NCBI RefSeq assembly: GCF_002127265.1 | Contig: NZ_NFUU01000003.1 | Location: forward strand, 505,055-569,054 | DNA: 64,000 nucleotides | Direction of reading: 5' to 3' | Origin: Hydrogenophaga sp. IBVHS1 | GTDB lineage: Bacteria > Pseudomonadota > Gammaproteobacteria > Burkholderiales > Burkholderiaceae_C | Made by a program: the position numbers and the translations under genes | Part shown: piece after piece, positions 34,538-51,885 of the stretch | Numbering within the stretch: position 1 is the stretch's first letter | How the letters are laid out: every line of letters begins with the position of its first letter | The notes under the pieces: generated by a model | Database searches by the model: none | Seen by the model: the letters and a program-made list of their open reading frames with translations, nothing else | Told to the model about the DNA's origin: nothing

Positions 34538-35446
34538 TCAACGCACGCCCTGCGCGATCGCAGCCTGCACCAGCTGCACATATCTTTCGACCAGCGAGCT
34601 TGCCTGCCGCTGGAGCAGCAGGCGTTCTTCGGTGTTGTCTGGTTGGTGGAACCGCCCGAACGCAAGCGCGCCCTTCATGAGGTGGCCATCCGTGTCACCG
34701 TGGGTGCAAAAGCTTCGCTGCATGCAATCGAGTGCCGCTTCTAGCGAAGTCCGATGCGGTCCTCGGTGAAACTGTTCTGCGAAGGCGCGGGCGCCCTCTT
34801 CCAGTTCACAGCCGTATTGCAGGACATGGACAAGATCGCCCGCATCTTTGTTGGCGCTGCGTTGATCGAATGCGATGGCCTTCAAAACGACAAACGCGAG
34901 TTGGTTGGCGTAGTGCACGCGCTCCACCGCAATGCCCTTTCCATCCAGAAGCTCGGCCTTGACCTCCTTCGTCTCATAGAGCGTTTGAGCAATGGACATA
35001 TGGGGCATCGACATCACCGATATCGATTCCGCCCCAAGGGTCTTGAGTTTCGCCAGCTCTTCCTCGGACGCGTCGCACAGAAACTCCACGCGCACGGGCA
35101 CGCCTCCCAAAGTCTTCGCTTCCCACTGCCAAGAGGAGACGCCGCCCTTCTCAAGCCGCATTTTCGAGAACCCGCGTTGCTTGAGCCGGTCGGCGATGGG
35201 AGCGTAGTCCTGGCCAGCGGCGATCACGGCAAGGTCGATCACCAGATCGAGGTCGGACGTGCCGGCGTGTGCCGGGATGTCTGGAGCACGCTCTGGCGTG
35301 AGGTACCTGGGTACCAGTCCGCCCATCAGGCGAACCGTGTCCTTCAGGCTGCCCATGCATCCGAGCACAGTGACCAGTGCCTGTTCACAGGCATCGGTGA
35401 CTTCCGGCAGGTACTCGGACGCGGTTTCTGGCTTGAAGTCAGACAT
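34538..35446 (-). CDS. AbiEii-like nucleotidyltransferase toxin
   Basis: A 302-residue protein with a DNA-polymerase-beta-type nucleotidyltransferase core: GG at 42-43 (LMGGLVPRYL) and metal ligands D65 and D67 in TSDLDLVIDL. These are the hallmarks of AbiEii/type IV toxins, which can modify tRNA in better-studied members. The ATG at 35446 overlaps the upstream antitoxin gene by 8 bp; an upstream GTG at 35455 is possible. Position behind an AbiEi-like gene supports a toxin-antitoxin or phage-defence pair. Activity is not shown. Confidence 0.8.
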   Translation of the reverse strand: MSDFKPETASEYLPEVTDACEQALVTVLGCMGSLKDTVRLMGGLVPRYLTPERAPDIPAHAGTSDLDLVIDLAVIAAGQDYAPIADRLKQRGFSKMRLEKGGVSSWQWEAKTLGGVPVRVEFLCDASEEELAKLKTLGAESISVMSMPHMSIAQTLYETKEVKAELLDGKGIAVERVHYANQLAFVVLKAIAFDQRSANKDAGDLVHVLQYGCELEEGARAFAEQFHRGPHRTSLEAALDCMQRSFCTHGDTDGHLMKGALAFGRFHQPDNTEERLLLQRQASSLVERYVQLVQAAIAQGVR

Positions 35447-36521
35447 TGGGCGCACCCTTGACGAGAAGTTGGCCTTTTAATGCGTTGGCCAGTTCCCGAC
35501 TGCGCCCTCCTGCGTTTGCCAATTCAAGGTACTGGACCACGGGGCTGGCGAAGCTACCCGGTCGATCTGCCAGTTCGAGGCGATGCTGCAGTGCGAATTC
35601 GTCGCACTCGTGGAGAGTGACGTTGAAGCCTTTGTCGGCGCGCTTGAGTCCCAGATGCTCTGCAACGGACGCAGTTGCCCCCACCCGCACGATCAGGTCG
35701 TAGCCACTGACTGCGGTAAGAAGTCGTGTGAAGCTGTTCGCAGCGTACTGTCCGGTGAAGGCCCAGTCATGGGGCTGTCCTTCGCCCATGCGTTTGGCCA
35801 GCATCTCCCCAAGGGACGCCGGGTTCTGCGTAAAGGCGAACCAGCGCAGCTTGCTCACCTTCCTGCTCTCCCAGTCGTTCGCCCATGTGTCGAGCAGTTC
35901 GCCCGGATCCAAGAGCCGACGGCGCACACTGCGCCCGTTCCCTTCGCTTTGAACCATGCCGCGCTTTTCCAGCTCTCGCATGAGCACTGAGACCGTATTG
36001 GGGCTGGCACCCGACGCATCCGCAAGGTCAGTGCCAGTGCGCCAGGTGTCCCAGTGGAGCAGCAGGGCGTGCAGAACTTTCTCACGCTCGGGAGTGAACA
36101 GCGAGCCCACATCTCTCCAGTTGGGCTTGAGGGGTGGGCGGTCAATGAGCACCTGTCGCATCCCCAGGCGAATAGAGAGGCTTCCACTGGCGTCAAAGTA
36201 GCCAATGCCTGATGCTTCCAGCAACCTGCGCGCGCCTTCGCTGAGCGTTTCGGCCCACACCATCACCTGATCGGTGCCGGCCTGTTTTGCAGCTTGCGTC
36301 CGCACGCGCTCGATGTCGCGGGGGTAGGCGTGCCGCTTGACCTCGACCAGGATGTTGCTGCGCTCGCCGTCAACCGTGATGCCCAAGCGCAGATCCCCTC
36401 TCTGCCCGTCGCTCAGGTCGGGTTCAAGCTCGATCTCGATGTCTTCAATTTGGACACGCTCAAAGAGCACCGAGCGGAATTGAGAAAGCAGCTTTTCAGT
36501 GGTTTGGTGTTCCTGGTTCAT
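35439..36521 (-). CDS. AbiEi-like antitoxin/repressor with nuclease-like N-domain
   Basis: A 360-residue protein, longer than typical AbiEi antitoxins. Residues 40-75 (GDLRLGITVDGE to ILVEVKRHAYP) resemble a PD-(D/E)xK core with D43, E60 and K62. Residues 145-205 form a winged helix (REKVLHALLLHWDTWRTGTDLA to MRELEKRGMVQ). The C-terminal 150 residues match the AbiEi-type C-domain only loosely. It is first of the pair and overlaps the toxin by 8 bp. Palindromic half-sites upstream fit autorepression, as known for AbiEi. Whether the nuclease-like domain is active or just recognises nucleic acid is open. Confidence 0.72.
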   Translation of the reverse strand: MNQEHQTTEKLLSQFRSVLFERVQIEDIEIELEPDLSDGQRGDLRLGITVDGERSNILVEVKRHAYPRDIERVRTQAAKQAGTDQVMVWAETLSEGARRLLEASGIGYFDASGSLSIRLGMRQVLIDRPPLKPNWRDVGSLFTPEREKVLHALLLHWDTWRTGTDLADASGASPNTVSVLMRELEKRGMVQSEGNGRSVRRRLLDPGELLDTWANDWESRKVSKLRWFAFTQNPASLGEMLAKRMGEGQPHDWAFTGQYAANSFTRLLTAVSGYDLIVRVGATASVAEHLGLKRADKGFNVTLHECDEFALQHRLELADRPGSFASPVVQYLELANAGGRSRELANALKGQLLVKGAPNV

Positions 36522-36665: not shown

Positions 36666-38282
36666 TCATCGCAACCCCGCCTTGCGCAGCCGGTAGCTGA
36701 ACTGCCGCAACGTGAGCCCCAGGCTCTGCGCCGCGCGAGACTGGTTGCCCTGGTGCTGCGCCAGCGCATCCCGCAAGGCCTGTGCACTGTGCGAACGCAC
36801 GCTCTGGTAGTCGCGCACCTGGCCCACCTCGCCAGGCAGCGCAGGTGGCGGTGGCGCGCCAGCACCCGGAGTCTGCGGCATGAAACGCTCCAGCGTCTCG
36901 GCCGTCACCAGCGTGTGGTCGGCCAGCAGCACCAGCCGCTCGATCAGGTTGCCCAGCTCGCGAATGTTGCCGGGCCAGGGGTGCGCTTCCAGCCGCGCCA
37001 GCGCATCGGGCGCCAGGTTCACGTTGCGCTGGTGCGTCTGGTTCGCGCGGTTCACAAAGTGCAGCGCGAGCGCTCGGATGTCCTCACCGCGCTCGCGCAG
37101 GCTGGGCAGGCGGATCGGGATCACGTTGAGGCGGTAATACAGGTCTTGCCGGAAGCGCCCGGCCTGCACCTCGGCGGCCAGCTCGCGGTTGGTGGCGGCC
37201 ACCAGCCGCACGTTCACCTTCACCTCGCGCGTGCCGCCCAGGCGCACCAGCGTGCCTTCCTGCAAGGTGCGCAGCAGTTTGGATTGCATCGCCAGTGGCA
37301 GCTCGCCAATCTCGTCCAGAAAAATGGTGCCGCCATTCGCCTGCTCGAACCAGCCCGCGCGGGCCGCGTTGGCGCCCGTGAAGGCGCCTTTTTCGTAGCC
37401 GAACAGCTCGGATTCGAACAGCGTCTCCGGAATGGCCGAGCAGTTCACCTTGATGAACGGCTGGTCGTGCCGGCCGCTGGCCAGGTGCACCGCACGCGCA
37501 AACAATTCCTTGCCTGTGCCCGATTCGCCCAGCAGCAGCACCGTGGCCTGCGATTGCGACACCCGTTCCAGTTCGCTCAGCGCCTGCAGCAGCGCGGGTG
37601 AACGGCCGATGAGGCCGTAGCGTGCGCTCGCGCTGTCCAGCGCGCGGGCCAGCGCCGCGTTGCGCACCACCAGCTGGCGCGTCTGCTCCGCCACCAGCTG
37701 CTCCAGCTGCAGCAGCTGGCCCGCCAGCGTGGCCAGAATGCGCAGCACCGCCAGGTCGTCGTTCAGGTGGCGTTGCCGGCTGCGGATGCGGTGGCAGGCC
37801 AGCACGCCGATGGTCGCGCCGTTCACGTCGATCGGCAGCGCAATGAAGGCCACGGTCTGCGGCGGCAGCCGCTCGCGCGGTACGGTGCGAAACAGAAACA
37901 GCGGCTCGGCGTCCACGTCCTGCACGATGGCCGGCAGGCCCGAAGCCAGCACCCGCCCGGTGATGCCCTCGCCCCACCGAAAGGTGCCGCGCTGCACTTC
38001 CTCGGCGGTGAGGCCGTAGGAATGGCGAATGGCCGCCGTGCGCTCGCTCAGCTTGCCGCCCAGCGGCGCCTCGCTGGCCAGCACCATGCGCCCCCGGTTC
38101 AGCCCCAGCAGCTCACTCATCAGGTGCATCATTTCCCGCAGCACGAAGGCCGGCGCCAGGCTGCGCCCCACCAGCTTCATCACCTCGCGCATCAGCAGCA
38201 GCTCCTGCGCATGCCAGTCGGTGCCGGGCGGGGTGTCGGGGTCGGTGCGGTGGGGAGGCATGGGCGCGAGGCAAGCAAGCAT
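36666..38282 (-). CDS. GAF-domain sigma-54 activator (NifA-like)
   Basis: A 538-residue enhancer-binding protein. A GAF domain (about residues 40-200) is followed by the AAA+ central domain with Walker A GESGTGKE, the RpoN-contact loop ELFGYEKGAFTGA, and Walker B GGTIFLDEIGEL. The C-terminus is a Fis-type helix-turn-helix (NQSRAAQSLGLTLRQFSYRL). NifA-subfamily regulators respond to cytoplasmic signals through GAF. Targets are not evident. Sigma-54 promoters occur elsewhere in the window (19604, 62413), but no link is shown. Start 38282 or the in-frame ATG at 38261; neither has a strong ribosome site. Confidence 0.88.
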   Translation of the reverse strand: MLACLAPMPPHRTDPDTPPGTDWHAQELLLMREVMKLVGRSLAPAFVLREMMHLMSELLGLNRGRMVLASEAPLGGKLSERTAAIRHSYGLTAEEVQRGTFRWGEGITGRVLASGLPAIVQDVDAEPLFLFRTVPRERLPPQTVAFIALPIDVNGATIGVLACHRIRSRQRHLNDDLAVLRILATLAGQLLQLEQLVAEQTRQLVVRNAALARALDSASARYGLIGRSPALLQALSELERVSQSQATVLLLGESGTGKELFARAVHLASGRHDQPFIKVNCSAIPETLFESELFGYEKGAFTGANAARAGWFEQANGGTIFLDEIGELPLAMQSKLLRTLQEGTLVRLGGTREVKVNVRLVAATNRELAAEVQAGRFRQDLYYRLNVIPIRLPSLRERGEDIRALALHFVNRANQTHQRNVNLAPDALARLEAHPWPGNIRELGNLIERLVLLADHTLVTAETLERFMPQTPGAGAPPPPALPGEVGQVRDYQSVRSHSAQALRDALAQHQGNQSRAAQSLGLTLRQFSYRLRKAGLR

Positions 38283-39068: not shown

Positions 39069-39989
39069 TCAATCCTGCGGCAACAGCCGTCCCGCAATCG
39101 CTGCCGCCGCCGACCGCGTCTCCACCCCCAGCTTCTCGAACACATGCTCCAGGTGCTTGTTCACCGTGCGGTGGCTCATGCCCAAGATGTCGGCGATGTC
39201 GCGGTTGGTCTTGCCTTTGGCGAGCCACGAGAGCACCTCGGTTTCGCGCGGGGTCAGGGCGACGTCGCGCAGGCGCTGGGCGGCGGCGTTTTCCAGCGGG
39301 CTCCAGCTCAACAGCAGCATCGATTCGCCCAAACTCCCCTGGCCGAGGTGGCGGGCGAGCAGGCGGCCCTGGTCGCGGTCGCGGGTGGCGGTGCCATCGC
39401 GGCGGGCGGTGGCCAGCCATTGCGCAGCTTGCTCCAGTGCCGCAGTGCCGGTGCCGAAGGCGCGCTCGAGCCACACCATGGCCTGGGGCGATCGCCAGGC
39501 CATGCGGCCCAATGAATCCAACACCACGCTGCCGAGGCCTGCCACGTCCACCGCTTCCTGCGCGAGCCGCGCCACGCGGGCGTTGCGCACGTGGGTGGCC
39601 AGGCGGGCCATCACCTCGGGAATGCGCAGCGGCTTGACCACATAGTCCACGCCGCCGCTGGCGAAGCCGCGCAAGATCGGTTCGCTGTCGGACAGGCCGG
39701 TCATGAACACCACCGGCACGTGCGACCAAGCCGGTGTGGCCTTGATGCGCTGGCACAGGTCGAAGCCGTCCATGCCGGGCATCACGGCGTCGAGCAGCAC
39801 GCCATCGGGAATCGCCACCTCGAAGCGTTCCAGCGCTTCGTCGGCGTCGCGTGCCGCCAGCACCACATAACCTTCGGCCACGAGCGCGTCGCCCAGCATG
39901 CGCAGGGTGTCGAGGGAATCGTCCACCACCAGAATCACCGGCTGGGTGGTCGGGGTGTCGGGCGGCGCAGTTTCAGACCAGGGTGTCAT
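39069..39989 (-). CDS. LuxR-type response regulator of the amide system
   Basis: A 306-residue regulator. The receiver has the acidic pocket in LVVDDS, phospho-acceptor D67 in GVLLDAVMPGMDG, and the conserved lysine in VVKPL. A 90-residue linker of unknown fold follows (about 140-235), then a LuxR/NarL helix-turn-helix (LTPRETEVLSWLAKGKTNRDIADILGMSHRTVNKHL). The start overlaps the 3' end of the hybrid kinase gene by 17 bp, so the two form a phosphorelay pair. The expected DNA target is the TACGT-N6-ACGTA site found before urtA and amiE; this is inference. Confidence 0.9.
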   Translation of the reverse strand: MTPWSETAPPDTPTTQPVILVVDDSLDTLRMLGDALVAEGYVVLAARDADEALERFEVAIPDGVLLDAVMPGMDGFDLCQRIKATPAWSHVPVVFMTGLSDSEPILRGFASGGVDYVVKPLRIPEVMARLATHVRNARVARLAQEAVDVAGLGSVVLDSLGRMAWRSPQAMVWLERAFGTGTAALEQAAQWLATARRDGTATRDRDQGRLLARHLGQGSLGESMLLLSWSPLENAAAQRLRDVALTPRETEVLSWLAKGKTNRDIADILGMSHRTVNKHLEHVFEKLGVETRSAAAAIAGRLLPQD

Positions 39990-42900
39990 CGTCTGAGAGT
40001 TCCTCGGTGTCCCTGAGGTATTCGATCAGGGTTTGAAAGTCGAAACGGTCTGCGCAGGATTGCAGCAGGGCCAGTGTGGCGGCGTGGGCGGGCTCGGCAC
40101 CCTGTGCTTGCCAGAGCCGCTGGCGCAGCGCGGCGGCCTGGCCTTGCCGCGCCAGCCGTTGAAGTTCTTCGCGCAGCGCCTCGGGCAGCGGCAGGCCGCT
40201 CACGCGCTGCCGGGTGCTGCTCTCGGCCGACAGGGCGGGGGCTTGCTCGGTGACCCAATCCAGCGCCAGCGCGTCGCGCAAGGCGTCCAGCAATTCGGAC
40301 TCGGTCATGGGTTTGGCGACGAAGCCCTGGTAGTCGAGCGCCTTGAACTCTTCGGGCCGGTTGTCGATGAGGTTGGCCGAAACGAACACGATCGGCAGGC
40401 GAGAAGAAGGCAGCAGCTTGCGCACCGCTTCGGCGGTCTGCCAGCCGTCGAGCCCGTCCATGGTCAGGTCCAGCAGCAGCAGATCGGGTGGGTGCTGTTC
40501 GATGATCTCCAGGCATTCCTGGCCGCTCGCCGCCTCGCGCACCACGAAGCCCAGCGGCATCAGGATGCTGGCGAGCAACTGGCGGTGCAGCGGCTGGTCG
40601 TCCACCACCAGCACGGTGCGGCGTTCGCCCAGGTAGCCCGTGACCGCGCGCAAGGTCGACGGAATCGGCAGCGGGTGCTTGGGGTCCGACGGAATCGGCG
40701 GCAGGTAGAGGCGCAGCGAGAACGTGCTGCCATGTCCCTGCCGGCTCTTGAGCAGCAGTTCGCCGCCCATCATGTCGGTGAGCAGGTGCGTGATGGTCAG
40801 GCCCAGGCCGGTGCCGGAATCGCGCGCGCGCCGGCCAGCGCTGCCGCGCTCGAACGGTAAAAAGATGCGCTTCTGGTCCTGCGCGGCAATCCCGATGCCG
40901 GTGTCCACCACGTCGATGCGCGCCACCTGCTGGCGGAAGTCGAGCTTCAGCGTCACTTCGCCCTCGTCGGTGAAGCGCACCGCGTTGCTCAGCAGGTTGA
41001 TAAGGATCTGCCGCAGGCGCTTGGCATCGGCGCGCACCCAGGCGGGCAACTCGCCTGCGCGGTGCACCGTGAACTTCAACCCCTTGGCTTCGGCCTGCGG
41101 GCGGATCATGCGCTCCACGTCTTCCAGCAGCTGACCCAGCGGCAGGGGCACCGGATCCAGCCGCAGGCGGCCGGCTTCGATGCGCGCCAGATCGAGCGAG
41201 CCGTCAATGAGGGTGTGCATGTGCTGGCCGCTGCGCTGCATGGTGGCAATCGTCTCGCGCACCCACACCGAGATGTCGCTGTTCTTCAGCAGAATCTGTG
41301 CGTAGCCCAGGATGCTGGTGAGTGGCGTGCGCAGCTCGTGCGTCATGCCCGCCACGTAGCGCGTCTTGGCCTGGCTAGCGGCCTCGGCGCGGTCGCGGGC
41401 CGACTGCAGTTCGGCATCGGTGCGCTTGTGCGCGTCGATCTCCAGCATCAGCAGCTGCGTCTGGCGTTCCGATTCGTCCTGCGCCATGCGCCGGCTGTCG
41501 GTGGTGAGCACCACCCACCAAGAGCACACCGCCGCGAACGGCACCAGGAAAGCATAGATCTTGAGGAGGGGCAGTTGCAGTGTTTCGGCCGGCGCGTGCA
41601 GGCTCTCCTGCACATACACCATGCCGATCAGCACCGCCATGATCGCGCTGATGGACAGCCACACCGTGAGGAACTGGCCAGCCCGGAAATTGATGCGCAC
41701 CGCCAGGCCCCGGGGCAGCATGGCCGTGATCAACGCGCGCACCTGGTCGATGGCGCGCGAGTTGGTCTTGCAGCGGTCGTGGCAGCGCGATTCGAGCGAG
41801 CAGCACAGCGAGCAGATGGGCGCGCGGTAGGCCGGGCAACTGGCCATGTCTTCCGATTCAAACTGGTTCTGGCACACCGCGCAGCGCACCACCTCACCCG
41901 GCTTCCACTCGGCCGATGGCGTGCGGGCCAGGTAGTAGCGGCCTTTGGTGGCCCAGGCCAGCAGGGGCGCGAGCAGCAGCGCCAGGCCCAGTGCAATGAA
42001 GGGTGAAAACGCGGCGGCTTCTTCGCCCATCACCCCCGTGTAGGCCACGCTGGCCACCAGTGCCGCAATGATCATGGAGCCCATGCCCACGGGGTTGAAG
42101 TCGTAGAGGTGCGCACGCCGGAACTCGATGCCCTTGGGGCTCAGGCCCAGTGGCTTGTTGATGATCAGGTCGGCCACCAGCGCACCCACCCAGGCAATGG
42201 CCACGTTGCTGTAGACGCCCAGCACCTTCTCGATGCCGGCGAACACGCCGAGCAGCATCAGCAGCGTGGCAATCGCCACGTTGAACACCAGCCACACCAC
42301 GCGCCCGGGGTGGCTGTGCGTCACCCGCGCAAAGAAGTTGGACCACGCGAGCGAGCCCGCATACGCATTGGTCACGTTGATCTTGATCTGCGCCAGGATC
42401 ACGAACACCACCGTCATGAGCACCGCCAGGCCCGGGTGGCCCACGGCCTCGGTGAACCCGGCCAGGAACATCTGCGTGGGCTCGGCGGTGCGCTCGGGCG
42501 CCACCTCGAACTGCATGGCGGCAAACGCGAGAAAGGCACCGCCCGTCATCTTGAGCATGCCCATCACGATCCAGCCGGGCCCGGGAATCAGCACGGCCAG
42601 CCACCAGCGCACGCGGTTCTGGCGCGTGCGCTCGGGCATGAAGCGCAAAAAGTCCACCTGCTCGCCAATCTGCACCACCAGCGAGAAGATCACCGCCGCT
42701 GCCGCGCCGAACATCAGCGGCTGGAACTGATTGCTGCCCGAGCGCAGGCCCGTGAGGCTGGAAAAATCGCGGTACATCTGCGGCTGTGAGAGCGCGATCC
42801 ACACAAACGGCAGCAGCAGCAGAAACAGGTACAGCGGCTGCGTCCAGGCCTGCAGGCGCGAAATGAGCGTGATGCCGCGCATGGCCAGCGGAATCACCAC

Positions 42901-43398
42901 CACCGCCGAGATCAAGTAGCACTGCGGCAGCGGCCAGTCGGTCGCCATCTGCAGCGCCAGCGCCATGATCACCGCCTCCAGCGCGAAGAAGATGAAGGTG
43001 AACATCGCGTAGATCAGCGACGTGATGGTGGAGCCCAGGTAGCCAAAGCCCGCACCACGCGTGAGCAGGTCCATGTCCAGCCCATAGCGCGCCGCGTAGT
43101 AGGCAATGGGCAGGCCGGTGAAAAAGATGATCGCGCCCACCACCAGGATCGCCCACATGGCATTGGCGAAGCCGTAGTTCACGGCGATGGCGCCGCCGAT
43201 GGCTTCCAGCGCCAGGAACGAGAGCGAGCCGAACGCGGTGTTGGCCACCCGCCACTCGCTCCATTTCCGGAAACTGCGCGGCGTGTAGCGCAGGGCGTAG
43301 TCCTCCATGGTCTCGTCGGCCACCCACGAGTTGTACTCCCGGCGGAACCGGAAGATTTTCTGGGTGGCCACGGGCGTGGCGGACTCGGGCAAGGGCAT
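39973..43398 (-). CDS. NCS1-permease / histidine kinase / receiver fusion (transporter-like sensor)
   Basis: A 1141-residue membrane sensor. Residues 15-490 form a complete NCS1-type (cytosine/purine/allantoin permease) domain of about twelve helices, with AFGSLSFLALEAIGG and INVTNAYAGSLAWSNFF typical of that family. Residues 500-545 are a linker with eight cysteines (506, 509, 521, 529, 532, 533, 539, 543) that may bind metal. Two more membrane segments follow (about 575-595 and 612-632). A HisKA box (H687 in GMTHELRTPLTS), an HATPase domain (N805, DTGIG 832-836, GTGLGL 862-867) and a receiver (D977) complete it. It is divergent from urtA. It may sense an imported amide or urea directly through the permease fold. 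The ATG at 43398 is chosen over an upstream GTG. Confidence 0.92.
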   Translation of the reverse strand: MPLPESATPVATQKIFRFRREYNSWVADETMEDYALRYTPRSFRKWSEWRVANTAFGSLSFLALEAIGGAIAVNYGFANAMWAILVVGAIIFFTGLPIAYYAARYGLDMDLLTRGAGFGYLGSTITSLIYAMFTFIFFALEAVIMALALQMATDWPLPQCYLISAVVVIPLAMRGITLISRLQAWTQPLYLFLLLLPFVWIALSQPQMYRDFSSLTGLRSGSNQFQPLMFGAAAAVIFSLVVQIGEQVDFLRFMPERTRQNRVRWWLAVLIPGPGWIVMGMLKMTGGAFLAFAAMQFEVAPERTAEPTQMFLAGFTEAVGHPGLAVLMTVVFVILAQIKINVTNAYAGSLAWSNFFARVTHSHPGRVVWLVFNVAIATLLMLLGVFAGIEKVLGVYSNVAIAWVGALVADLIINKPLGLSPKGIEFRRAHLYDFNPVGMGSMIIAALVASVAYTGVMGEEAAAFSPFIALGLALLLAPLLAWATKGRYYLARTPSAEWKPGEVVRCAVCQNQFESEDMASCPAYRAPICSLCCSLESRCHDRCKTNSRAIDQVRALITAMLPRGLAVRINFRAGQFLTVWLSISAIMAVLIGMVYVQESLHAPAETLQLPLLKIYAFLVPFAAVCSWWVVLTTDSRRMAQDESERQTQLLMLEIDAHKRTDAELQSARDRAEAASQAKTRYVAGMTHELRTPLTSILGYAQILLKNSDISVWVRETIATMQRSGQHMHTLIDGSLDLARIEAGRLRLDPVPLPLGQLLEDVERMIRPQAEAKGLKFTVHRAGELPAWVRADAKRLRQILINLLSNAVRFTDEGEVTLKLDFRQQVARIDVVDTGIGIAAQDQKRIFLPFERGSAGRRARDSGTGLGLTITHLLTDMMGGELLLKSRQGHGSTFSLRLYLPPIPSDPKHPLPIPSTLRAVTGYLGERRTVLVVDDQPLHRQLLASILMPLGFVVREAASGQECLEIIEQHPPDLLLLDLTMDGLDGWQTAEAVRKLLPSSRLPIVFVSANLIDNRPEEFKALDYQGFVAKPMTESELLDALRDALALDWVTEQAPALSAESSTRQRVSGLPLPEALREELQRLARQGQAAALRQRLWQAQGAEPAHAATLALLQSCADRFDFQTLIEYLRDTEELSDDDTLV

Positions 43399-43445
43399 GC
43401 CCTGCACGCTAGCAAGAAGCGTCCCCGCCGCACAGATGCGCGCTC

Positions 43446-43461
43446 TACGTTATTTGACGTA
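43446..43461. promoter_or_regulatory. TACGT-N6-ACGTA site upstream of urtA
   Basis: TACGTTATTTGACGTA is an imperfect 16-bp inverted repeat located 86 bp before the urtA start and 48 bp before the kinase start. Its right half TTGACGTA is identical to that of the site before amiE. Probable binding site of the LuxR-type regulator, possibly controlling both divergent transcripts. Confidence 0.65.
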
Positions 43462-43546: not shown

Positions 43547-44815
43547 ATGAAGCACCTCACCGATCCGAATGCCGTCTCCCTTGAAACCCCGGAAGCCAGC
43601 CGCCGCCGCGTGCTGCAGATGATGGGTGCCGCCGGCCTGGCCGGTCTGCCCGCCTGGAGCTTCGGCCAGCCCACTGCGCAGGTCAACACCACCAAGCTGG
43701 CCGTGACCGACACCGAAGTCACCGTCGGGCAGTTGCATTCTTCTACGGGCACGATGGCGATTTCGGAAACGGGTTCCATCCAGGCCGAGCAGCTCGCCAT
43801 CGACGAGATCAACGCGATGGGCGGCATCCTGGGTCGCAAGATCAAGGTGATCAAGGAAGACGGCGCCTCCGACTGGCCGACCTTCGCGGAAAAATCGAAG
43901 AAGCTGCTGATCAACGACCGCTGCGCCGCCGTGTTCGGCTGCTGGACCAGCGCTTCGCGCAAGGCCGTGCTGCCGGTGTTCGAGAAGGAAAACGGCCTGC
44001 TGTACTACCCCACGTTCTACGAAGGCCTGGAGCAATCCAAGAACGTGATCTACACCGGCCAGGAAGCCACACAGCAGATTCTGTACAGCCTGGACTGGGC
44101 ACAGAAAGAGAAGAAAGCCAAGACCTTCTTCCTGATCGGTTCCGACTACATCTGGCCGCGCACCTCGATGAAGATCGCGCGCAAGCACATCGAGAACTTC
44201 CAGAAGGGCAAGGTGGTGGGCGAGGAGTACTACCCGCTGGGCAGCACCAACTTCGGCTCGCTGATGAACAAGATCAAGCTGCAGAAGCCCGACTGCATCT
44301 TCGCCGCCGTGGTCGGTGGCTCCAACGTGGCCTTCTACAAGGCGCTCAAGGCAGCCGGCATCACCGGCGACAAGCAACTGCTGGTGACGCTCTCGGTGAC
44401 CGAGGATGAAATGACCGGCGTGGGCGGTGAAAACTTCCAGGGCTTCTACTCGTCCATGAAGTACTTCCAGTCGCTCGACAACGAGAACAACAAGAAGTTC
44501 GTGGCCGCATTCAAGGCCAAGTACGGCAAAGACGCCGTGATCGGCGACGTGACGCAGGCCGGCTACCTCGGCCCCTGGCTGTGGAAGGCCGCGGTGGAGA
44601 AGGCCAAGAGCTTCGACGTGGACAAGGTGGTGGCCGCCTCGCGCACCGGCATCGAGCTCAAGACCGCACCCGAAGGCTACGTGAAGCTCGACCCGAACCA
44701 CCACCTGTGGAGCAAGTCGCGCATCGCCATGGGCATGCCGGACGCGACGTTCAAGGTCGTAGCCGAGTCACCAGAGTTGATCAAGCCCGATCCATTCCCC
44801 AAGGGTTATCAGTAA
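43547..44815 (+). CDS. urtA: Urea/short-chain amide ABC transporter substrate-binding protein
   Basis: A 422-residue periplasmic binding protein of the HAAT/UrtA family, equivalent to FmdD of amide-using methylotrophs. The N-terminus has a twin-arginine-like signal (SRRRVLQMMGAAGLAGLPAW, cleaved near FGQ). The binding domain has VTVGQLHSSTGTMAISE and GCWTSASRKAVLPVFE, typical of urea/amide binders. It is first of a tight transport and hydrolysis operon. Urea or formamide/acetamide are equally plausible ligands by family; the downstream formamidase and amidase favour amides. Confidence 0.9.
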   Translation: MKHLTDPNAVSLETPEASRRRVLQMMGAAGLAGLPAWSFGQPTAQVNTTKLAVTDTEVTVGQLHSSTGTMAISETGSIQAEQLAIDEINAMGGILGRKIKVIKEDGASDWPTFAEKSKKLLINDRCAAVFGCWTSASRKAVLPVFEKENGLLYYPTFYEGLEQSKNVIYTGQEATQQILYSLDWAQKEKKAKTFFLIGSDYIWPRTSMKIARKHIENFQKGKVVGEEYYPLGSTNFGSLMNKIKLQKPDCIFAAVVGGSNVAFYKALKAAGITGDKQLLVTLSVTEDEMTGVGGENFQGFYSSMKYFQSLDNENNKKFVAAFKAKYGKDAVIGDVTQAGYLGPWLWKAAVEKAKSFDVDKVVAASRTGIELKTAPEGYVKLDPNHHLWSKSRIAMGMPDATFKVVAESPELIKPDPFPKGYQ

Positions 44816-44875
44816 GCCCACCCACGCCGCGGCGCGCGTGCGCCGCGGTGCGTCCCTTTGCCTTGGAGATCTGAA

Positions 44876-45790
44876 ATGAGTTTCAACGACCTGCTCAACA
44901 TCGGCCTGATGCAGGGCTTCGCGGGCCTGAGCCTCTTTGCGGTGCTGCTGCTCATGGGGCTGGGCCTGGCCATCATCTTCGGGCAGATGGGCGTGATCAA
45001 CATGGCGCATGGCGAGTTCATGACCATCGGTGCCTACACCATCTTTCTCGGCTCCACGCTCGCCAACTCCATCAGTCCCGGCGCCGTGGCCGCCTACTTT
45101 CCGTTTGCCATCGTCGCGGCCTTCGTGTTCGCCTTCGCCGCTGGCTGGTTCATCGAGTGGGCGCTGATCCGCCACCTGTACAAGCGCCCGCTCGACACGC
45201 TGCTCGCCACCTGGGGCATCAGCCTGGCGATGCAGCAATGCTTTCGCACTTTCATCGGGCCGAAGGAAGTGAGCCCCACGCTGCCCGACTGGCTGCTGGG
45301 CTCGTGGGCACCCGCCGAGGGCCTGGACATCCCCATCAACGGCATGTTCGTGCTCGCCCTCACCGCGGTCGTCACGTGTGGCGTGCTGATTGCCCTGCAC
45401 AAGAGTCGCTGGGGTCTGCGGGTGCGCGCCACGGTGAGCAACCGGGTGATGGCCAACGCCACCGGCATCGACACGAAAAAGACCGATCGCCTCACCTTCG
45501 CCATTGGCTGTGGCATTGCCGGCGTGGCGGGTGCGGCCTTCACCACCATTGGCTCCACCGGCCCCACCTCGGGCTCGCTCTACATCGTCGACGCTTTCCT
45601 GGTCGTCACCTTCGGCGGCGCGGCCAGTCTGCTGGGCACCGTGGTGTCCGCCTTCGGCATCGCGCAGACGCAATCGATCACCGAATTTTTCATGGCCGGC
45701 TCCATGGCCAAGATGCTCACGCTCTCGCTCATCGTGGTGATCCTGATGCTGCGTCCGCAAGGCTTGTTCGCATCCAAAGTGCGTCGCTGA
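44876..45790 (+). CDS. urtB: Urea/amide ABC transporter permease (LivH type)
   Basis: A 304-residue branched-chain-type permease with about eight hydrophobic helices. Family stretches are LGLAIIFGQMGVINMAHGEFM near 35-55 and TGIDTKKTDRLTFAIGCGIAG near 200-220. GGAG lies eight bases upstream of the ATG at 44876. It pairs with the next gene to form the membrane channel. Confidence 0.92.
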   Translation: MSFNDLLNIGLMQGFAGLSLFAVLLLMGLGLAIIFGQMGVINMAHGEFMTIGAYTIFLGSTLANSISPGAVAAYFPFAIVAAFVFAFAAGWFIEWALIRHLYKRPLDTLLATWGISLAMQQCFRTFIGPKEVSPTLPDWLLGSWAPAEGLDIPINGMFVLALTAVVTCGVLIALHKSRWGLRVRATVSNRVMANATGIDTKKTDRLTFAIGCGIAGVAGAAFTTIGSTGPTSGSLYIVDAFLVVTFGGAASLLGTVVSAFGIAQTQSITEFFMAGSMAKMLTLSLIVVILMLRPQGLFASKVRR

Positions 45791-45814: not shown

Positions 45815-47020
45815 ATGAACGCCCTGAAAGCCTGGATCCTTCGCTACCAGCTCGCCAGCCTGGTGCTGCTGACGGTGCTGCTCGCGGTGGTATTGCCACT
45901 CAGCCTCGACATCTTCCGACTCAACCTGGTGGGCAAATACCTCACCTACGCGTTTGTCGCCATCGGCCTGGTGATGCTCTGGGGCTACGGCGGTGTGCTG
46001 AGCCTCGGGCAGGGCGTGTTCTTCGGCCTCGGCGGCTACGCCATGGCCATGTTCCTCAAACTCGAAGCCTCAGACCCCGAGAGCACCAAGATCCAGTCCA
46101 CCCCCGGCATTCCAGACTTCATGGACTGGAACCAGATCACCGAGCTGCCCGCGTTCTGGGTGCCGTTCAAGAGCTTTCCGTTCGCACTGGCCGCCGTCAT
46201 CGTGGTGCCCACGCTGCTGGCCTGGCTCATCAGCTTCGCCATGTTCAAGCGCCGCGTCGGTGGCGTGTATTTCGCCATCATCACGCAGGCGGTGGCGCTC
46301 ATCCTCACCGTGGCCATCATCGGCCAGCAGGGTTACACCGGCGGCGTGAACGGCATGACCGACCTCAAGACGCTGATGGGCTGGGACACCCGCACCGACA
46401 GCGCCAAGTACATCCTGTACTACGTCTGCGTGGGCATGCTGGTGCTGTCCATGGTGGTGTGCCGCTGGATTCAGACCAGCAAGCTCGGCACGTTGCTGCT
46501 GGCCATGCGCGACAAGGAAGACCGTGTGCGTTTCTCGGGCTACGACGTGGCCGACTTCCGCATCTTCGTGTTCTGCCTGGCCGCCGCGCTGTCCGGCATC
46601 GGCGGCGCGCTGTTCACGCTGCAGGTGGGCTTCATGTCACCCAGCTTCGTGGGCATCGTGCCTTCCATCGAGATGGTGATCTACGCCGCCGTGGGCGGGC
46701 GCATGAGCCTGGTGGGCGCGGTCTACGGCACGTTGCTGGTCAACGCCGGCAAGACCTTCTTCTCCGAGAGCTTCCCGGACCTCTGGCTGTTCCTCATGGC
46801 CGGCCTCTTTATCGGAGTGACCATGGCCTTTCCCATGGGCCTTGCAGGCGTGTGGGAAGAACGCATCGTGCCCTGGTGGAAGGGTCGCCGTGCCGCGCTG
46901 CGCGATGCCTCTGCCTCGCGCCCCCAGCCGCCTTCGCCACCGCCCCACGCGCCCATGATGAAGCAACCCCCCACGACCACCGTGAAGCTGCCCGAAGGCA
47001 CCAGCGGCCAGAGCGTCTAG
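45815..47020 (+). CDS. urtC: Urea/amide ABC transporter permease (LivM type)
   Basis: A 401-residue permease with about ten helices. Signature segments include LWGYGGVLSLGQGVFFGLGGYAMAMF and RFSGYDVADFRIFVFCLAAALSGIGGAL. A cytoplasmic tail of 45 residues is rich in proline and charged residues (RPQPPSPPPHAP) and is not conserved. GGAG precedes the ATG. It is third in the operon. Confidence 0.92.
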   Translation: MNALKAWILRYQLASLVLLTVLLAVVLPLSLDIFRLNLVGKYLTYAFVAIGLVMLWGYGGVLSLGQGVFFGLGGYAMAMFLKLEASDPESTKIQSTPGIPDFMDWNQITELPAFWVPFKSFPFALAAVIVVPTLLAWLISFAMFKRRVGGVYFAIITQAVALILTVAIIGQQGYTGGVNGMTDLKTLMGWDTRTDSAKYILYYVCVGMLVLSMVVCRWIQTSKLGTLLLAMRDKEDRVRFSGYDVADFRIFVFCLAAALSGIGGALFTLQVGFMSPSFVGIVPSIEMVIYAAVGGRMSLVGAVYGTLLVNAGKTFFSESFPDLWLFLMAGLFIGVTMAFPMGLAGVWEERIVPWWKGRRAALRDASASRPQPPSPPPHAPMMKQPPTTTVKLPEGTSGQSV

Positions 47021-47039
47021 GCCACACGGAACACACGAA

Positions 47040-47783
47040 ATGAGCAACACCGACTTCGCCCTTTCCGTGGAAGACCTCACCGTCTCGTTCGACGGCTTCA
47101 AGGCCATCGACGACCTCACGCTCTACATCGACAAGAACGAGCTGCGCGTGATCATCGGCCCCAACGGCGCGGGCAAGACCACGCTGCTGGACCTGATCTG
47201 CGGAAAGACCAAGGCCAGCAGCGGCAGCATCAAGTTCAAGAACCACGAAATCATCCAGGTGGCCGAGCACAAGCGCGTGCGCCTGGGCATTGGCCGCAAG
47301 TTCCAGACGCCTTCGATCTACGAGAACCTCTCGGTGTTCCAGAACCTCGAAGTGTCGTATCCGTCCGGCCGCTCGGTCTGGGGCGCACTCGCCTTCACCG
47401 CCACGGCAGAAATCCAGGCACGCGTGAAAGCCGTGGCGCAGGAGATCAGTCTGGGCGACAAGCTCGACACCGAGGCTGGCCTGCTCTCGCACGGGCAGAA
47501 GCAGTGGCTGGAGATCGGCATGCTGCTGATGCAGGAGCCCGAGCTGCTGATGCTCGATGAACCCATTGCCGGCATGAGCGCGCGGGAGCGCGACCTCACC
47601 GCCGAATTGCTGCAACGCATCTGCCAGAACCGCGCCGTGATCGTGATCGAGCACGACATGGACTTCGTCAAGAAGATCGCCCACAAGGTCACGGTCATGC
47701 ACCAGGGAAAGATCCTGGCCGAGGGTCCCATGGACCAGGTGCAGGCGGACCCGAAGGTCATCGACGTGTACCTCGGCCACTGA
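47040..47783 (+). CDS. urtD: Urea/amide ABC transporter ATPase (UrtD)
   Basis: A 247-residue ATPase with Walker A GPNGAGKTT, Walker B LLMLDEPIAGM and H-loop IVIEHDMDFV. Its signature is LSHGQKQWLEIG instead of LSGGQ, which is characteristic of the UrtD subgroup and supports the urea/amide assignment. It works as a heterodimer with the next gene product. Confidence 0.93.
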   Translation: MSNTDFALSVEDLTVSFDGFKAIDDLTLYIDKNELRVIIGPNGAGKTTLLDLICGKTKASSGSIKFKNHEIIQVAEHKRVRLGIGRKFQTPSIYENLSVFQNLEVSYPSGRSVWGALAFTATAEIQARVKAVAQEISLGDKLDTEAGLLSHGQKQWLEIGMLLMQEPELLMLDEPIAGMSARERDLTAELLQRICQNRAVIVIEHDMDFVKKIAHKVTVMHQGKILAEGPMDQVQADPKVIDVYLGH

Positions 47784-47793
47784 AGGAACCACC

Positions 47794-48483
47794 ATGCTGA
47801 AAGTCAAGGACCTCGTCGTCGCCTACGGCCAGAGCCAGGCCCTGCACGGTCTCTCTTTTGAGACGCGCGAGAACGAATGCGTGGCCATCATGGGCCGCAA
47901 CGGCATGGGCAAGACCACGCTGTTCAAGAGCCTCATGGGCGTGCTGCCCACCAAGACTGGCCATGTCTCGATCGCGGGCCAGGACGTGACGAACGACGAG
48001 AGTTTCAAGCGTGTGGCCAAGGGCCTGGCCTACGTGCCGCAGGGCCGCATGATCTTCCCCACCCTCACGGTGGAAGAGAACATCCAGACCGGACTGGAGA
48101 ACGCGAAGGATCGCACCATTCCGGAAGAGATCTACGCGCTGTTCCCGGTGCTGTGGGATATGCGCCGGCGCAAGGGCGGCAATCTCTCGGGTGGCCAGCA
48201 GCAGCAGCTCGCCATTGCGCGCGCGCTCGTCACCGACCCCAAGGTGCTGCTGCTCGACGAGCCCACCGAGGGCATCCAGCCGTCCATCATCAAGGACATC
48301 GCCAAGGCGCTCAACGAGATCCGCAAGATGCGCAAGATCACCATCGTGGTCTCCGAGCAGGTGCTGTCGTTCGCCATGGATGTCGCTGACCGGCTGTTCG
48401 TCATCGAAGGTGGTCGCCTGGTGCACGAGACCGAGCGCGGCGACACCGACCAGCAGCGCATCAAGTCCTACCTGTCTGTCTGA
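47794..48483 (+). CDS. urtE: Urea/amide ABC transporter ATPase (UrtE)
   Basis: A 229-residue ATPase with Walker A GRNGMGKTT, signature LSGGQQQQLAIARAL, and Walker B VLLLDEPTEGIQPS. It starts 10 bp after urtD and completes the five-subunit importer. Confidence 0.93.
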   Translation: MLKVKDLVVAYGQSQALHGLSFETRENECVAIMGRNGMGKTTLFKSLMGVLPTKTGHVSIAGQDVTNDESFKRVAKGLAYVPQGRMIFPTLTVEENIQTGLENAKDRTIPEEIYALFPVLWDMRRRKGGNLSGGQQQQLAIARALVTDPKVLLLDEPTEGIQPSIIKDIAKALNEIRKMRKITIVVSEQVLSFAMDVADRLFVIEGGRLVHETERGDTDQQRIKSYLSV

Positions 48484-48525: not shown

Positions 48526-49752
48526 ATGGCCGAAACGCTGATCAAGGTCGACCTCACGAAGTCACCGCTGGAAAACGAGAACATCCACAACCGCTGGCAC
48601 CCTGACATCCCCATGGCCTGCTGGGTCAAGCCGGGGGATGAATTCATTCTGGAAACCTTCGACTGGACGGGTGGCTTCATCAAGAACAACGACAGCGCCG
48701 ACGACGTGCGCGACATCGACCTGACGACGGTGCATTACCTGAGCGGCCCGGTGGGTGTGAAGGGGGCCGAACCTGGCGACCTGCTGGTGGTGGACCTGCT
48801 GGACATCGGCGCCAAGGAAGACAGCCTCTGGGGCTTCAACGGCTTCTTCAGCAAGAAAAACGGTGGCGGTTTCCTGACCGAACATTTCCCGCAGGCCCAG
48901 AAATCCATCTGGGATTTCCACGGCATGTTCACCAGCTCGCGCCACGTGCCCGGCGTGAAGTACGCGGGGCTGATCCACCCCGGCCTCATCGGCTGTCTGC
49001 CCGACCCCAGGATGCTGGAGATGTGGAACACGCGCGAGCAGGCGCTGATCGATTCCGACCCCGCCACCAGCGGCCTGGCCAACCCGCCCTTTGCCGGCAC
49101 GGCGCACATGGGCAAGATGACCGGTGCCGCGCGCGACAAGGCCGCCGCCGAAGGCGCGCGCACCGTGCCGCCGCGCGAGCACGGTGGCAACTGCGACATC
49201 AAGGACCTCTCCCGCGGCGCCAAGGTGTTCTTCCCGGTCTACGTGGAAGGCGCGGGCCTTTCCGTGGGCGACCTGCACTTCAGCCAGGGTGATGGCGAGA
49301 TCACCTTCTGCGGCGCTATCGAGATGGCGGGCTGGGTGCACATGAAGGTCACGCTCATCAAGGGCGGCATGGCCAAGTACGGCATCAAGAACCCGATCTT
49401 CAAGCCCAGCCCGATCACGCCCACCTACAACGACTACGTGATTTTTGAAGGCATCAGCGTGGATGAGAGCGGCAGGCAGTACTACCTCGACGTGAACGTG
49501 GCCTACCGCCAGGCCTGCCTGAACGCCATCGAGTACCTGAAGAAGTTTGGCTACTCGGGCGCGCAGGCTTACTCCATCCTCGGCACCGCGCCGGTGCAGG
49601 GCCACATCAGCGGCGTGGTCGACGTGCCCAACGCCTGCGCCACGCTGTGGCTGCCCACCCAGATCTTCGACTTCGACATCAACCCCAACGCCAGCGGCCC
49701 GATCAAGCACATCGACGGCTCGATCCAGATGCCGCTGTCGCCCGACAAGTAA
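48526..49752 (+). CDS. fmdA: Formamidase (FmdA/AmdA family)
   Basis: A 408-residue acetamidase/formamidase-family enzyme that hydrolyses formamide to formate and ammonia. Family stretches include NRWHPDIPMACWVKPGDEF near the start, HHL-type metal-binding context replaced by TVHYLSGPVGVKGAEPGDLL, and the conserved GGNCDIKDLSRGAKVFFPVYVEGA. Length is typical (about 400). AAGGAG precedes the ATG. It lies 42 bp after the transporter genes, so import and hydrolysis are co-expressed. Confidence 0.93.
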   Translation: MAETLIKVDLTKSPLENENIHNRWHPDIPMACWVKPGDEFILETFDWTGGFIKNNDSADDVRDIDLTTVHYLSGPVGVKGAEPGDLLVVDLLDIGAKEDSLWGFNGFFSKKNGGGFLTEHFPQAQKSIWDFHGMFTSSRHVPGVKYAGLIHPGLIGCLPDPRMLEMWNTREQALIDSDPATSGLANPPFAGTAHMGKMTGAARDKAAAEGARTVPPREHGGNCDIKDLSRGAKVFFPVYVEGAGLSVGDLHFSQGDGEITFCGAIEMAGWVHMKVTLIKGGMAKYGIKNPIFKPSPITPTYNDYVIFEGISVDESGRQYYLDVNVAYRQACLNAIEYLKKFGYSGAQAYSILGTAPVQGHISGVVDVPNACATLWLPTQIFDFDINPNASGPIKHIDGSIQMPLSPDK

Positions 49753-49830: not shown

Positions 49831-49866
49831 GTGCTGGCGAAGACACGCGAACCAAGGAGCTTGAAT

Positions 49867-50208
49867 ATGCCGACCTACGACTACGACTGCCCGTCCTGCG
49901 GTGGCTTCGATGCGTTCCGCTCTTTGAGTGAGCGCAACGAGCCAGCGACCTGCCCGGACTGCGGCACGGCTTCGGCGCGCGTGTTTGTGACCGCGCCGCG
50001 CCTGGCGCTCATGGACAGCGGCACGCGCTCGGCCATGGGTGTGAACGAGCGTGCGCGGCACGAGCCCAAGCGCTCGGGCGACTATGCGCGCCTGAAGCAC
50101 CCGGCCGGCTGTGGGTGCTGCAGCACCGGCCGCAGCAAGGCGACGGTAACGGCACCGAACGGCGCAAAGGCCTTCCCCAGCAAACGCCCCTGGATGATCA
50201 GTCACTGA
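49867..50208 (+). CDS. fmdB: FmdB zinc-ribbon protein
   Basis: A 113-residue protein with the FmdB zinc ribbon at its N-terminus: MPTYDYDCPSC (C8, C11) and CPDCG (C29, C32). The tail is basic and has an extra Cys cluster (GCGCCS). In amide-using methylotrophs FmdB is encoded with formamidase and was proposed to regulate it; its true role is unsettled. AAGGAG lies eight bases before the ATG. Its 3' end overlaps a convergent gene by seven bases. Confidence 0.9.
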   Translation: MPTYDYDCPSCGGFDAFRSLSERNEPATCPDCGTASARVFVTAPRLALMDSGTRSAMGVNERARHEPKRSGDYARLKHPAGCGCCSTGRSKATVTAPNGAKAFPSKRPWMISH

Positions 50209-50757: not shown

Positions 50758-50773
50758 TACGTCAATTGACGTA
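50758..50773. promoter_or_regulatory. TACGT-N6-ACGTA site upstream of amiE
   Basis: TACGTCAATTGACGTA is a perfect 16-bp palindrome, 72 bp before the amiE start and 47 bp before the divergent secreted-protein gene. It matches the site before urtA in 13 of 16 positions including both outer ACGT blocks. Probable operator of the LuxR-type regulator. Confidence 0.7.
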
Positions 50774-50844: not shown

Positions 50845-51885
50845 ATGATGCACGGCGACATTTCAAGCAGCAAGGACACGGTCGGTGTGGCCGTGGTGAA
50901 CTACAAGATGCCCCGGCTGCACACCAAGGCCGAGGTGCTGGACAACGCGCGCAAGATCGCGGACATGATCGTCGGCATGAAGTCGGGCCTGCCGGGCATG
51001 GATCTGGTGATCTTTCCCGAGTACAGCACGCACGGCATCATGTACGACGCCAAGGAGATGTACGACACGGCCGCCACCGTGCCCGGCGCGGAGACCGACA
51101 TCTTCGCCGAGGCCTGCCGCAAGGCGAAGGTGTGGGGCGTGTTCTCGCTCACCGGCGAGCAGCACGAGGAGCACCCCTACAAGGCGCCGTACAACACGCT
51201 CATCCTCATGAACGACCAGGGCGAGATCGTGCAGAAGTACCGCAAGATCATGCCGTGGGTGCCCATCGAAGGCTGGTACCCGGGCGACTGCACCTACGTG
51301 AGCGAAGGCCCCAAGGGCCTGAAGATCAGCCTGATCATTTGCGACGACGGCAACTACCCCGAGATCTGGCGCGACTGCGCCATGAAGGGCGCCGAACTGA
51401 TCGTGCGTTGCCAGGGCTACATGTATCCCGCGAAAGACCAGCAGGTGCTGATGGCCAAGGCCATGGCCTGGGCCAACAACACCTATGTGGCGGTCGCCAA
51501 TGCCTCGGGCTTCGACGGCGTGTACAGCTACTTCGGCCACAGCGCGCTGATCGGCTTCGACGGCCGCACGCTCGGCGAATGTGGCGAGGAAGACTACGGC
51601 GTGCAGTACGCCGCGCTCTCCACCAGCCTGATCCGCGACTTCCGCAAAAACGCGCAGAGCGAGAACCACCTCTTCAAGCTGCTGCACCGGGGTTACACCG
51701 GCCTGATCAATTCGCGCGAAGGCGACAAGGGCGTGGCCGCTTGTCCGTATGGTTTTTACGCCAACTGGATCAACGACCCCGAGGGCACGCAAAAGGCGGT
51801 GGAAGCGATCACGCGGCCCATGGTGGGCACGGAGGAATGCCCGATCGAAGGCATTCCCAATCCGTCCACCGCAGGCCACCGCTGA
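50845..51885 (+). CDS. amiE: Aliphatic amidase
   Basis: A 346-residue nitrilase-superfamily enzyme hydrolysing short aliphatic amides (acetamide, propionamide) to acid and ammonia. It is nearly collinear with Pseudomonas Ami[21 protein letters not shown] at the start and the catalytic triad at the same numbers, E59, K134 and C166 ([15 protein letters not shown]). The P. aeruginosa control genes amiC and amiR are absent; the amide-sensing kinase system and the palindrome upstream probably replace them. The start at 50845 follows the family's N-terminus. The AAA+ gene begins two bases after its stop. Confidence 0.96.

Follow-up and report, generated by a model that had tools for sequence, protein, structure and literature searches.

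A 64,000-nucleotide stretch of the Hydrogenophaga sp. IBVHS1 genome (contig NZ_NFUU01000003.1, positions 505,055 to 569,054; hereafter the window) carries on its minus strand the gene of a hybrid sensor histidine kinase whose N-terminal half has the predicted fold of a transporter. The gene is a single unbroken frame from GTG 43407, or from ATG 43398, to 39973, and encodes in order a 12-helix permease fold, an eight-cysteine segment, two further helices, a HisKA/HATPase core and a receiver. It shares 17 bp with the gene of a LuxR/NarL-type response regulator. Divergent from it lie urtABCDE, fmdA and an FmdB-like gene, with amiE farther on. Together with a palindrome placed before urtA and amiE, these features point to a sensor that recognizes urea, short aliphatic amides or both, and whose partner regulator very probably governs the neighboring genes. 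The parts of the kinase-regulator pair are as follows.

39973..43407, minus strand: transporter-fold hybrid sensor histidine kinase, 1144 aa from GTG 43407 (alternative start ATG 43398)
41938..43308, minus strand: NCS1-like permease-fold domain, residues ~34-490 (AlphaFold2, Foldseek/VIA, hhalign)
41764..41892, minus strand: eight-cysteine segment, residues 506-548, probable zinc site
41491..41688, minus strand: two further predicted helices, residues 574-639 (AlphaFold2), presumably in the membrane
41170..41370, minus strand: HisKA, residues 680-746, phospho-acceptor His690 (Pfam)
40702..41028, minus strand: HATPase_c, residues 794-902 (Pfam)
40279..40614, minus strand: receiver (Response_reg), residues 932-1043, phospho-acceptor Asp980 (Pfam)
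39069..39989, minus strand: LuxR/NarL-type response regulator, REC and GerE, 306 aa (Pfam)

The kinase and its membrane domain

Both the order of the fusion and the overlap with the regulator gene had been read from the sequence in a first-pass annotation, and they are borne out by the unbroken frame, the Pfam kinase and receiver domains and an AlphaFold2 transporter core. The hallmarks of a hybrid histidine kinase are present (the HisKA histidine, the N and G boxes and the receiver aspartate), with His690 kept in 94 of 95 and Asp980 in 89 of 91 rows that have a letter at that position. Among the 80 closest titled-record loci, 77 have a frame that reaches the HisKA region, and the other three (L072, L074, L085) stop at a contig end. 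Because these 77 loci read on over the HisKA region, the fusion is real and not the assembly artefact that the annotation had named as an alternative.

Within the first 640 residues, Pfam gives only a sub-threshold zinc-finger match. The cysteines of the segment are C509, C512, C524, C532, C535, C536, C542 and C546, and they probably form a zinc site. When modelled alone, the segment and the two following helices reached a predicted local distance difference test (pLDDT) value of 87.3; against the PDB this isolated part gave no significant match, the best being Foldseek E 0.61 and VIA Z 7.8 (helices only).

The membrane domain is left unnamed by Pfam, NCBIfam and PDB sequence searches. With PF02133, the Pfam family of NCS1 transporters (TC 2.A.39), hmmscan matched neither the isolated domain nor any of 52 alignment members at a limit of E=10, and a host-genome search with PF02133 reported another gene only, not the kinase. 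The check suggested earlier, PF02133 and HisKA in one protein, therefore returned HisKA and not PF02133. Since the sequence libraries do not name the domain, fold and profile comparison were used. Residues 1-640 were modelled with AlphaFold2 from a 52-row alignment (A2: the window protein and 51 of the 80 loci, L073 being dropped for its bad frame and others by choice), giving pLDDT 82.4, a predicted TM-score of 0.83, and a transporter core followed by two helices past the cysteines. Foldseek placed Mhp1 (E 1.3e-9) and CodB (E 4.4e-9) at the top ranks, and VIA-align gave Z 34.1 for CodB (root-mean-square deviation 3.4, 392 aligned) and Z 28.1 for Mhp1 (4.1, 429 aligned), compared with Z 23.1 for the best chain outside NCS1.

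Profile comparison agrees with the fold ranks. Against a 7-row NCS1 alignment (A3, 7 of 10 PF02133 loci, three being dropped for wrong frames), hhalign gave the membrane domain Prob 94.6 and E 7e-8; against SSS (10 of 12 loci), APC (6 of 7) and BCCT (10 of 10), Prob was 1.3, 0.2 and 0.3, and column-reversed decoys scored below 1. Pairwise comparison among these other families reached Prob 34.7 at most. Alignment A4 does not include L084. From the Foldseek and VIA ranks and the hhalign score, the domain is classed as NCS1-like, a predicted relative outside the curated Pfam family. The NCS1 identity assigned by the first-pass annotation thus holds for the fold and the profile and fails for the Pfam model.

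Pocket correspondences were drawn from profile alignment rather than coordinate superposition, with CodB residues taken from the structural report (PMC9379551), and residues were counted over 98 fused rows after exclusion of L073, a wrong-frame piece of 30 residues. By this alignment the two stacking aromatics of NCS1 transporters, conserved throughout the family according to the CodB authors (PMC9379551), are not kept: Trp108 of CodB aligns with F140 (F in 87 rows, L in 11) and Phe204 with L243 (L in 94, M in 3, F in 1). Mhp1 Gln121 aligns with E144, CodB Asn280 with N344, and the CodB pair Arg216/Tyr285 with R255/Y349; E144, N344, R255 and Y349 are invariant in 98/98 rows. The Na2 hydroxyls Thr278/Thr279 align with K342 (98/98) and I343, and the Na2 site of CbrA is likewise reported to hold a lysine, K196 (PMC13022988). 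As both the aromatics and the Na2 hydroxyls appear replaced, we infer a small, non-aromatic ligand and independence of sodium.

Kinase-free homologues of the membrane domain offer a comparison, the sample being three forms and one very distant one (L201). The first, L050, adjoins urease genes; the second, L033, adjoins fmdA and amiE and is divergent from its own kinase-fused copy; the third, L261 of Acinetobacter baumannii, is divergent from a kinase gene. In a quick tree of 96 rows (96 of 133 after an 88% identity filter), the kinase-free forms separate from all 92 fused forms with a support of 99 in the Shimodaira-Hasegawa-like approximate likelihood ratio test (SH-aLRT), a value that carries a warning for one long branch; L201 and the A. 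baumannii kinase are the long branches. Fused forms have F64, E68 and A350 in 92/92 and A145 in 90/92, where the three kinase-free forms have Y64, F or Q68, S350 and G145 (3/3). The distant L201 has A64, but F68, G145 and S350 as in the other kinase-free forms. Since these four core positions separate the sensors from the kinase-free forms, the substitutions suggest that the fused domain has changed its job.

Predicted operator and genomic context

Two exact copies of a palindrome mark the window.

43446..43461, no strand: predicted operator palindrome TACGTTATTTGACGTA, in the kinase/urtA gap, 85 bp before the urtA ATG
50758..50773, no strand: second exact palindrome TACGTCAATTGACGTA, 71 bp before the amiE ATG, the only other one in the genome

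The motif was derived from 76 gaps between divergent kinase and urtA genes, 64 of them non-redundant. An inverted-repeat dyad occurs in 50 of the 64, the largest count of any dyad in five shuffled sets being 14. Its consensus is TACGT-N6-ACGTA, with a loose form TACG-N8-CGTA, and the 76 gaps contain the loose site in 60 cases and the exact site in 44. The 4.43-Mb host genome holds exactly the two exact sites listed above. Of the 64 exact sites present across 129 loci (2.46 Mb), all but one (63) stand no more than 500 bp ahead of a gene of the urea/amide-kinase set, mostly the kinase and/or urtA, then fmdA (8), amiE (3), a porin-like gene (2) and urtC (one). Twelve further whole genomes, chosen by the author among those bearing the kinase and including two (G388, G249) whose sites were already known from the gap scan, contain 21 exact sites, of which 17 precede urtA/kinase, fmdA or amiE: 12 in the kinase/urtA gap, three at fmdA and two at amiE (one on another contig). 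The remaining four lie elsewhere, and the one inspected has no gene of the set beside it. At its own kinase, genome G405 lacks an exact site.

Control urtA genes with no kinase in the stretch read had the exact site in 0/70 and the loose site in 2/70 cases. These controls comprise the first 30 urtA loci, nearly all of another UrtA type, and 40 added ones; identity to the window UrtA is below 45% in 62, 45-60% in two and at least 60% in six, and in one control locus (L295) a kinase lies just beyond the stretch read (L041). The two loose control sites belong to the urtA of the urease-type locus of the host, about 3 kb from a second kinase, and to its same-genus counterpart; both read TACGCC-N4-GGCGTA. 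When only UrtA of the type found in the window is counted (identity of 60% or more), sites were found in 0/6 cases without the kinase vs 43/72 (exact) and 59/72 (loose) with it. A recognition residue of the regulator tracks the half-site, being N in 36/36 exact-type loci and D in 12/12 TACGC-type loci; four exact-type loci are gapped there, five loci are without a regulator, and the regulator of the host paralogue did not enter the analysis.

The loose site occurs in the 450 bp preceding the kinase in 47/64 fmdA-linked and 12/23 urt-only loci. Nine of the 21 stretches upstream of urease-linked kinases contain a different dyad, GGCA-N6-TTGC, and a sigma-54 site was matched in only 3 of the 76 kinase/urtA gaps. 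Because of the placement of the palindrome, including the controls, the kinase-regulator pair very probably controls urtABCDE-fmdAB and amiE, in line with the control of urea and amide use that had been proposed from the first reading; the steps from regulator to palindrome to urt-fmd and amiE are strongly supported by this comparison of sites.

The genes concerned are listed below; the names urtB to urtE are given by position.

43547..44815, plus strand: urtA, urea ABC transporter binding protein (TIGR03407 above cut-off)
44858..45790, plus strand: urtB-type permease (BPD_transp_2)
45815..47020, plus strand: urtC-type permease (BPD_transp_2)
47040..47783, plus strand: urtD-type ATPase
47794..48483, plus strand: urtE-type ATPase
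48526..49752, plus strand: fmdA, formamidase (NF045496 above cut-off)
49831..50208, plus strand: FmdB-like zinc-ribbon protein (Zn_ribbon_8), which we take to be fmdB
50845..51885, plus strand: amiE, aliphatic amidase (NF009802 above cut-off)

The kinase gene is divergent from urtABCDE-fmdAB, as first described; amiE lies beyond the urt-fmd genes and does not adjoin the kinase. At least 572 loci were confirmed in a homologue scan of genome contigs. From these the 80 best matches were retained, which biases linkage upward; they include Beta-, Gamma- and Alphaproteobacteria and Cyanobacteria; among the matches listed, the closest titled relatives are Hydrogenophaga metagenome-assembled genomes (90% over the membrane part). 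The neighborhood comparison that had been suggested as a check found urtA near 72 of these best 80 of at least 572 loci, the regulator near 71, fmdA near 51, amiE near 28 and ureC near four, within up to 10 kb on each side and with distances measured to tblastn alignment starts rather than start codons. Matches occurred in 18 of 369 genomes of a class sample, in 60 of 398 of a phylum sample (eight weak or partial) and in 105 of 341 of a Pseudomonas order sample (some weak). A urea/amide gene is present in the stretch around 108 of 128 fused rows, a count in which one gene appears twice (L034/L035), two A. baumannii strains are separate and kinases sharing a stretch share a label. Context labels cluster on the tree, partly because rows are related (28 changes vs 45.0 when shuffled, as low in 0/200). 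The family is widespread; it is almost unrecognized and has so far been known only indirectly.

A paralogue with 49% overall identity is also encoded in the host genome, flanked by ureABC and another urt operon.

L040 7952-11446 (host genome C1:2837979-2841422), minus strand: second kinase of the same family, with ureA divergent ~100 bp away and the urt operon on the far side

A published genome paper mentions, as annotation, a third urtABCDE with a histidine kinase and a LuxR regulator alongside (PMC13296017). L206 and L207 (about 9.7-9.8 kb) have shorter kinase-fused forms next to fmdA, with frame lengths of 894 and 899 aa; no regulator of the kinase-partner family was found in the stretch. 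Downstream of the regulator, the window encodes a NifA-like GAF/sigma-54 activator (36666-38282, minus strand), and a gene of this kind lies near the locus in three of the best 80 titled relatives. Farther on, a protein encoded at 35439-36521 (minus strand) has weak AbiEi-antitoxin-like and winged-helix matches.

Proposed signaling route and its alternatives

We propose that the NCS1-fold membrane domain has been turned from a transporter into a receptor (a transceptor) for urea and/or short aliphatic amides, presumably with loss of transport. A ligand in the central pocket would shift the conformation of the rocking bundle, and the cysteine segment, probably with bound zinc, would relay this change together with the two extra helices to the HisKA dimer. 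Autophosphorylation on His690 would follow, and the phosphate would pass, probably via Asp980, to the co-encoded LuxR-type regulator. Binding of the regulator to TACGT-N6-ACGTA would then activate, rather than repress, urtABCDE-fmdAB and amiE; the regulator's own gene would probably be activated too. Taken as a whole, this route is likely to be correct.

A number of observations weigh against it. Ligand binding, loss of transport and phosphorylation of the window protein are predictions from sequence and model, and the membrane domain is unmatched by PF02133. By base composition about one exact palindrome would be expected in the host genome (author's estimate). With one mismatch allowed the host genome has 8 places vs 57 for a backwards control pattern, the 21 exact sites in the 12 genomes compare with 43 for that control, and with two mismatches allowed the 8 matches in the window are at chance level; the palindrome evidence is thus one of position and not of over-representation by number. 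The loose site is rarer outside fmdA-linked loci, occurring upstream of 2/21 urease-linked and 3/20 unlinked kinases. The type-matched control is small (n=6), and the cases pairing D with TACGC come from one alphaproteobacterial group and amount to about one event. As linkage in the best 80 is biased upward, the evenly drawn class sample should also be considered: there a urea/amide gene lies near 10 of 18 fused loci, some in short stretches. Finally, instead of urt, the A. baumannii member has as its neighbor an ABC transporter whose binding protein is of family 3, and the published phenotype of AmsSR, the two-component system of this species discussed below, is one of broad energy metabolism (PMC10112286).

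The main rival to the receptor model is that the membrane domain still works as a urea/amide permease and that the kinase reads transport flux rather than mere occupancy. Two kinase-free relatives, next to urease genes in one case and to fmdA and amiE in the other, indeed share residues E144, Q246, K342, N344 and Y349, and the SLC5 domain of CbrA is reported to transport histidine (PMC13022988). However, F64, E68, A145 and A350 set the fused forms apart, and with a dedicated urt ABC importer already encoded alongside, flux sensing is unlikely, if still to be taken seriously. Alternatively, the kinase may sense membrane energy, ions or, through its cysteines, redox state, and only set the gain of nitrogen-scavenging genes. 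Lys342, aligned with the Na2 position, may make the fold proton-responsive, and AmsSR is induced by carbonyl cyanide m-chlorophenyl hydrazone (CCCP), its mutants showing an altered membrane potential (PMC10112286). The exact operator copies before urea and amide genes point instead to a specific inducer, and all eight segment cysteines are found in the kinase-free permease L033 and four of them in L050, which makes a sensor of this general kind improbable.

Kinases of the BceS type read the state of a neighboring ABC transporter, and the permease fold could similarly be an anchor that reads the state of Urt and has no ligand of its own. The tight synteny with urtABCDE would fit such a role, to which we give little credence: some members have no urt in the stretch read, including that of A. 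baumannii, whose operator copy sits instead in the gap separating the kinase gene from a solo permease, and the pocket residues are invariant in 98/98 rows. Classical NCS1 transporters take nucleobases, hydantoins or allantoin, and such a ligand would accord with CodB and Mhp1 as the nearest folds. A nucleobase was among the ligands first put forward, and it is unlikely because neither stacking aromatic is kept by alignment (Trp108 to F140, Phe204 to L243). Nor is a purine or pyrimidine gene named among the annotated neighbors, only part of which carry annotation, and this group of ligands is very improbable for the sensor.

A wider and more tentative proposal goes beyond the receptor model, with the balance tilting slightly against it. 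The NCS1-fold family would have arisen from little-known urea/amide permeases through a few core substitutions (F64, E68, A145, A350) and would be the long-missing bacterial sensor of urea and short amides; in AmsSR/StkSR it would have been repurposed, with the neighboring permease rather than energy metabolism at large as the direct target. The family would then offer a dedicated urea/amide sensor with a predicted operator and regulon. Taken overall, the earlier interpretation of the locus is partly supported.

Relation to known systems

In A. baumannii, AmsSR is described as a cryptic hybrid kinase with 14 transmembrane helices and an adjoining LuxR-type regulator, without an Hpt domain; the genes overlap by 4 nt, occur in 17 of 55 Acinetobacter species and are induced by CCCP, and mutants have an altered membrane potential (PMC10112286). 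The same system has also been studied as StkSR (PMC9146086). The records of this species gave a kinase of 1,157 aa and a regulator of 319 aa with a 4-nt overlap, the kinase being 51% identical to the window protein over the membrane part. The tree groups it with the fused forms (SH-aLRT 88), its branch being long. The records hold two matching places, one fused and the other kinase-free:

L261 12180-13796, minus strand: kinase-free permease-domain relative, divergent from the amsS-like gene (no Pfam match, E 0.001)

The gap separating this solo permease from the kinase contains a degenerate palindrome, and neither urt nor urease was found within the 30 kb read. Three of the records (NZ_CP104448.1, NZ_CP077849.1, NZ_CP064203.1), of 3.7-4.1 Mb and labelled plasmids, look like A. 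baumannii chromosomes and are apparently mislabelled.

Strain AB5075 is reported to have a single LuxR-type two-component system (PMC5382811). Because of this and of the one fused match in the A. baumannii records, AmsSR/StkSR (ABUW_2427/2426) almost certainly belongs to the NCS1-like kinase family, an assignment made by inference rather than by alignment to ABUW_2427 itself. The words 'permease', 'urea' and 'NCS1' are absent from the main text of the AmsSR paper (PMC10112286), as are 'permease', 'urea', 'domain' and 'transmembrane' from that of the StkSR paper (PMC9146086). The statement that no characterized NCS1 example was known should thus be amended: a characterized system almost certainly belongs here, with its permease unmentioned in the main texts searched. 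No description of an NCS1-kinase fusion was recognized in the literature searched; the palindrome itself was not searched for in print. AmsS as a CrbS orthologue was considered and dropped, since the A. baumannii locus shows otherwise. Like the window system, AmsSR/StkSR combines 14 predicted transmembrane helices and a hybrid kinase with an adjoining LuxR-type regulator; unlike it, there is no urt or urease nearby, and a divergent solo permease takes their place.

An inducible formamidase operon of the kind discussed here reportedly belongs to Methylophilus. Such a formamidase/urea-amide uptake operon is described in a review as induced by formamide and urea (PMC10781810), and the literature searched names no dedicated sensor for it. 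GrtK (427 aa, PilS-like; PMC12918730) was considered as a related system and rejected as unrelated.

The SLC5-STAC kinases CbrA and CrbS/MxtR resemble the window kinase in fusing a transporter-fold receptor to a kinase. Their SLC5 fold is accompanied by STAC and PAS domains (PMC7918813), and CrbR is a LuxR-type regulator that acts on an inverted repeat (PMC5715377). In contrast, the window kinase has an NCS1-like fold, the cysteine segment and no PAS match, and PF00474 (SSF) does not match it, in agreement with the low hhalign value for SSS. At the position of STAC lie the eight-cysteine segment and the two helices, for which Pfam gives only the sub-threshold zinc finger. The CbrA/CrbS targets are those of acetate or histidine use, and the DNA motif is another one (ACTU). 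Ks-Amt5 is likewise a transporter module recruited as a sensor of nitrogen compounds (PMC5764959), unlike the window kinase in its Amt fold, which is joined directly to the kinase part. CodB and Mhp1 share the fold of the window membrane domain and, by alignment, the R255/Y349 and N344 matches; the window domain differs in lacking a PF02133 match, the aromatics and the Na2 hydroxyls, and in being fused to a kinase. To our knowledge, the transceptor folds fused to kinases have been SLC5 and Amt. The NCS1-like fold would join them, and it would provide a structural and regulatory handle on AmsSR/StkSR, which has until now been interpreted as serving energy metabolism in general or as linked to colistin.

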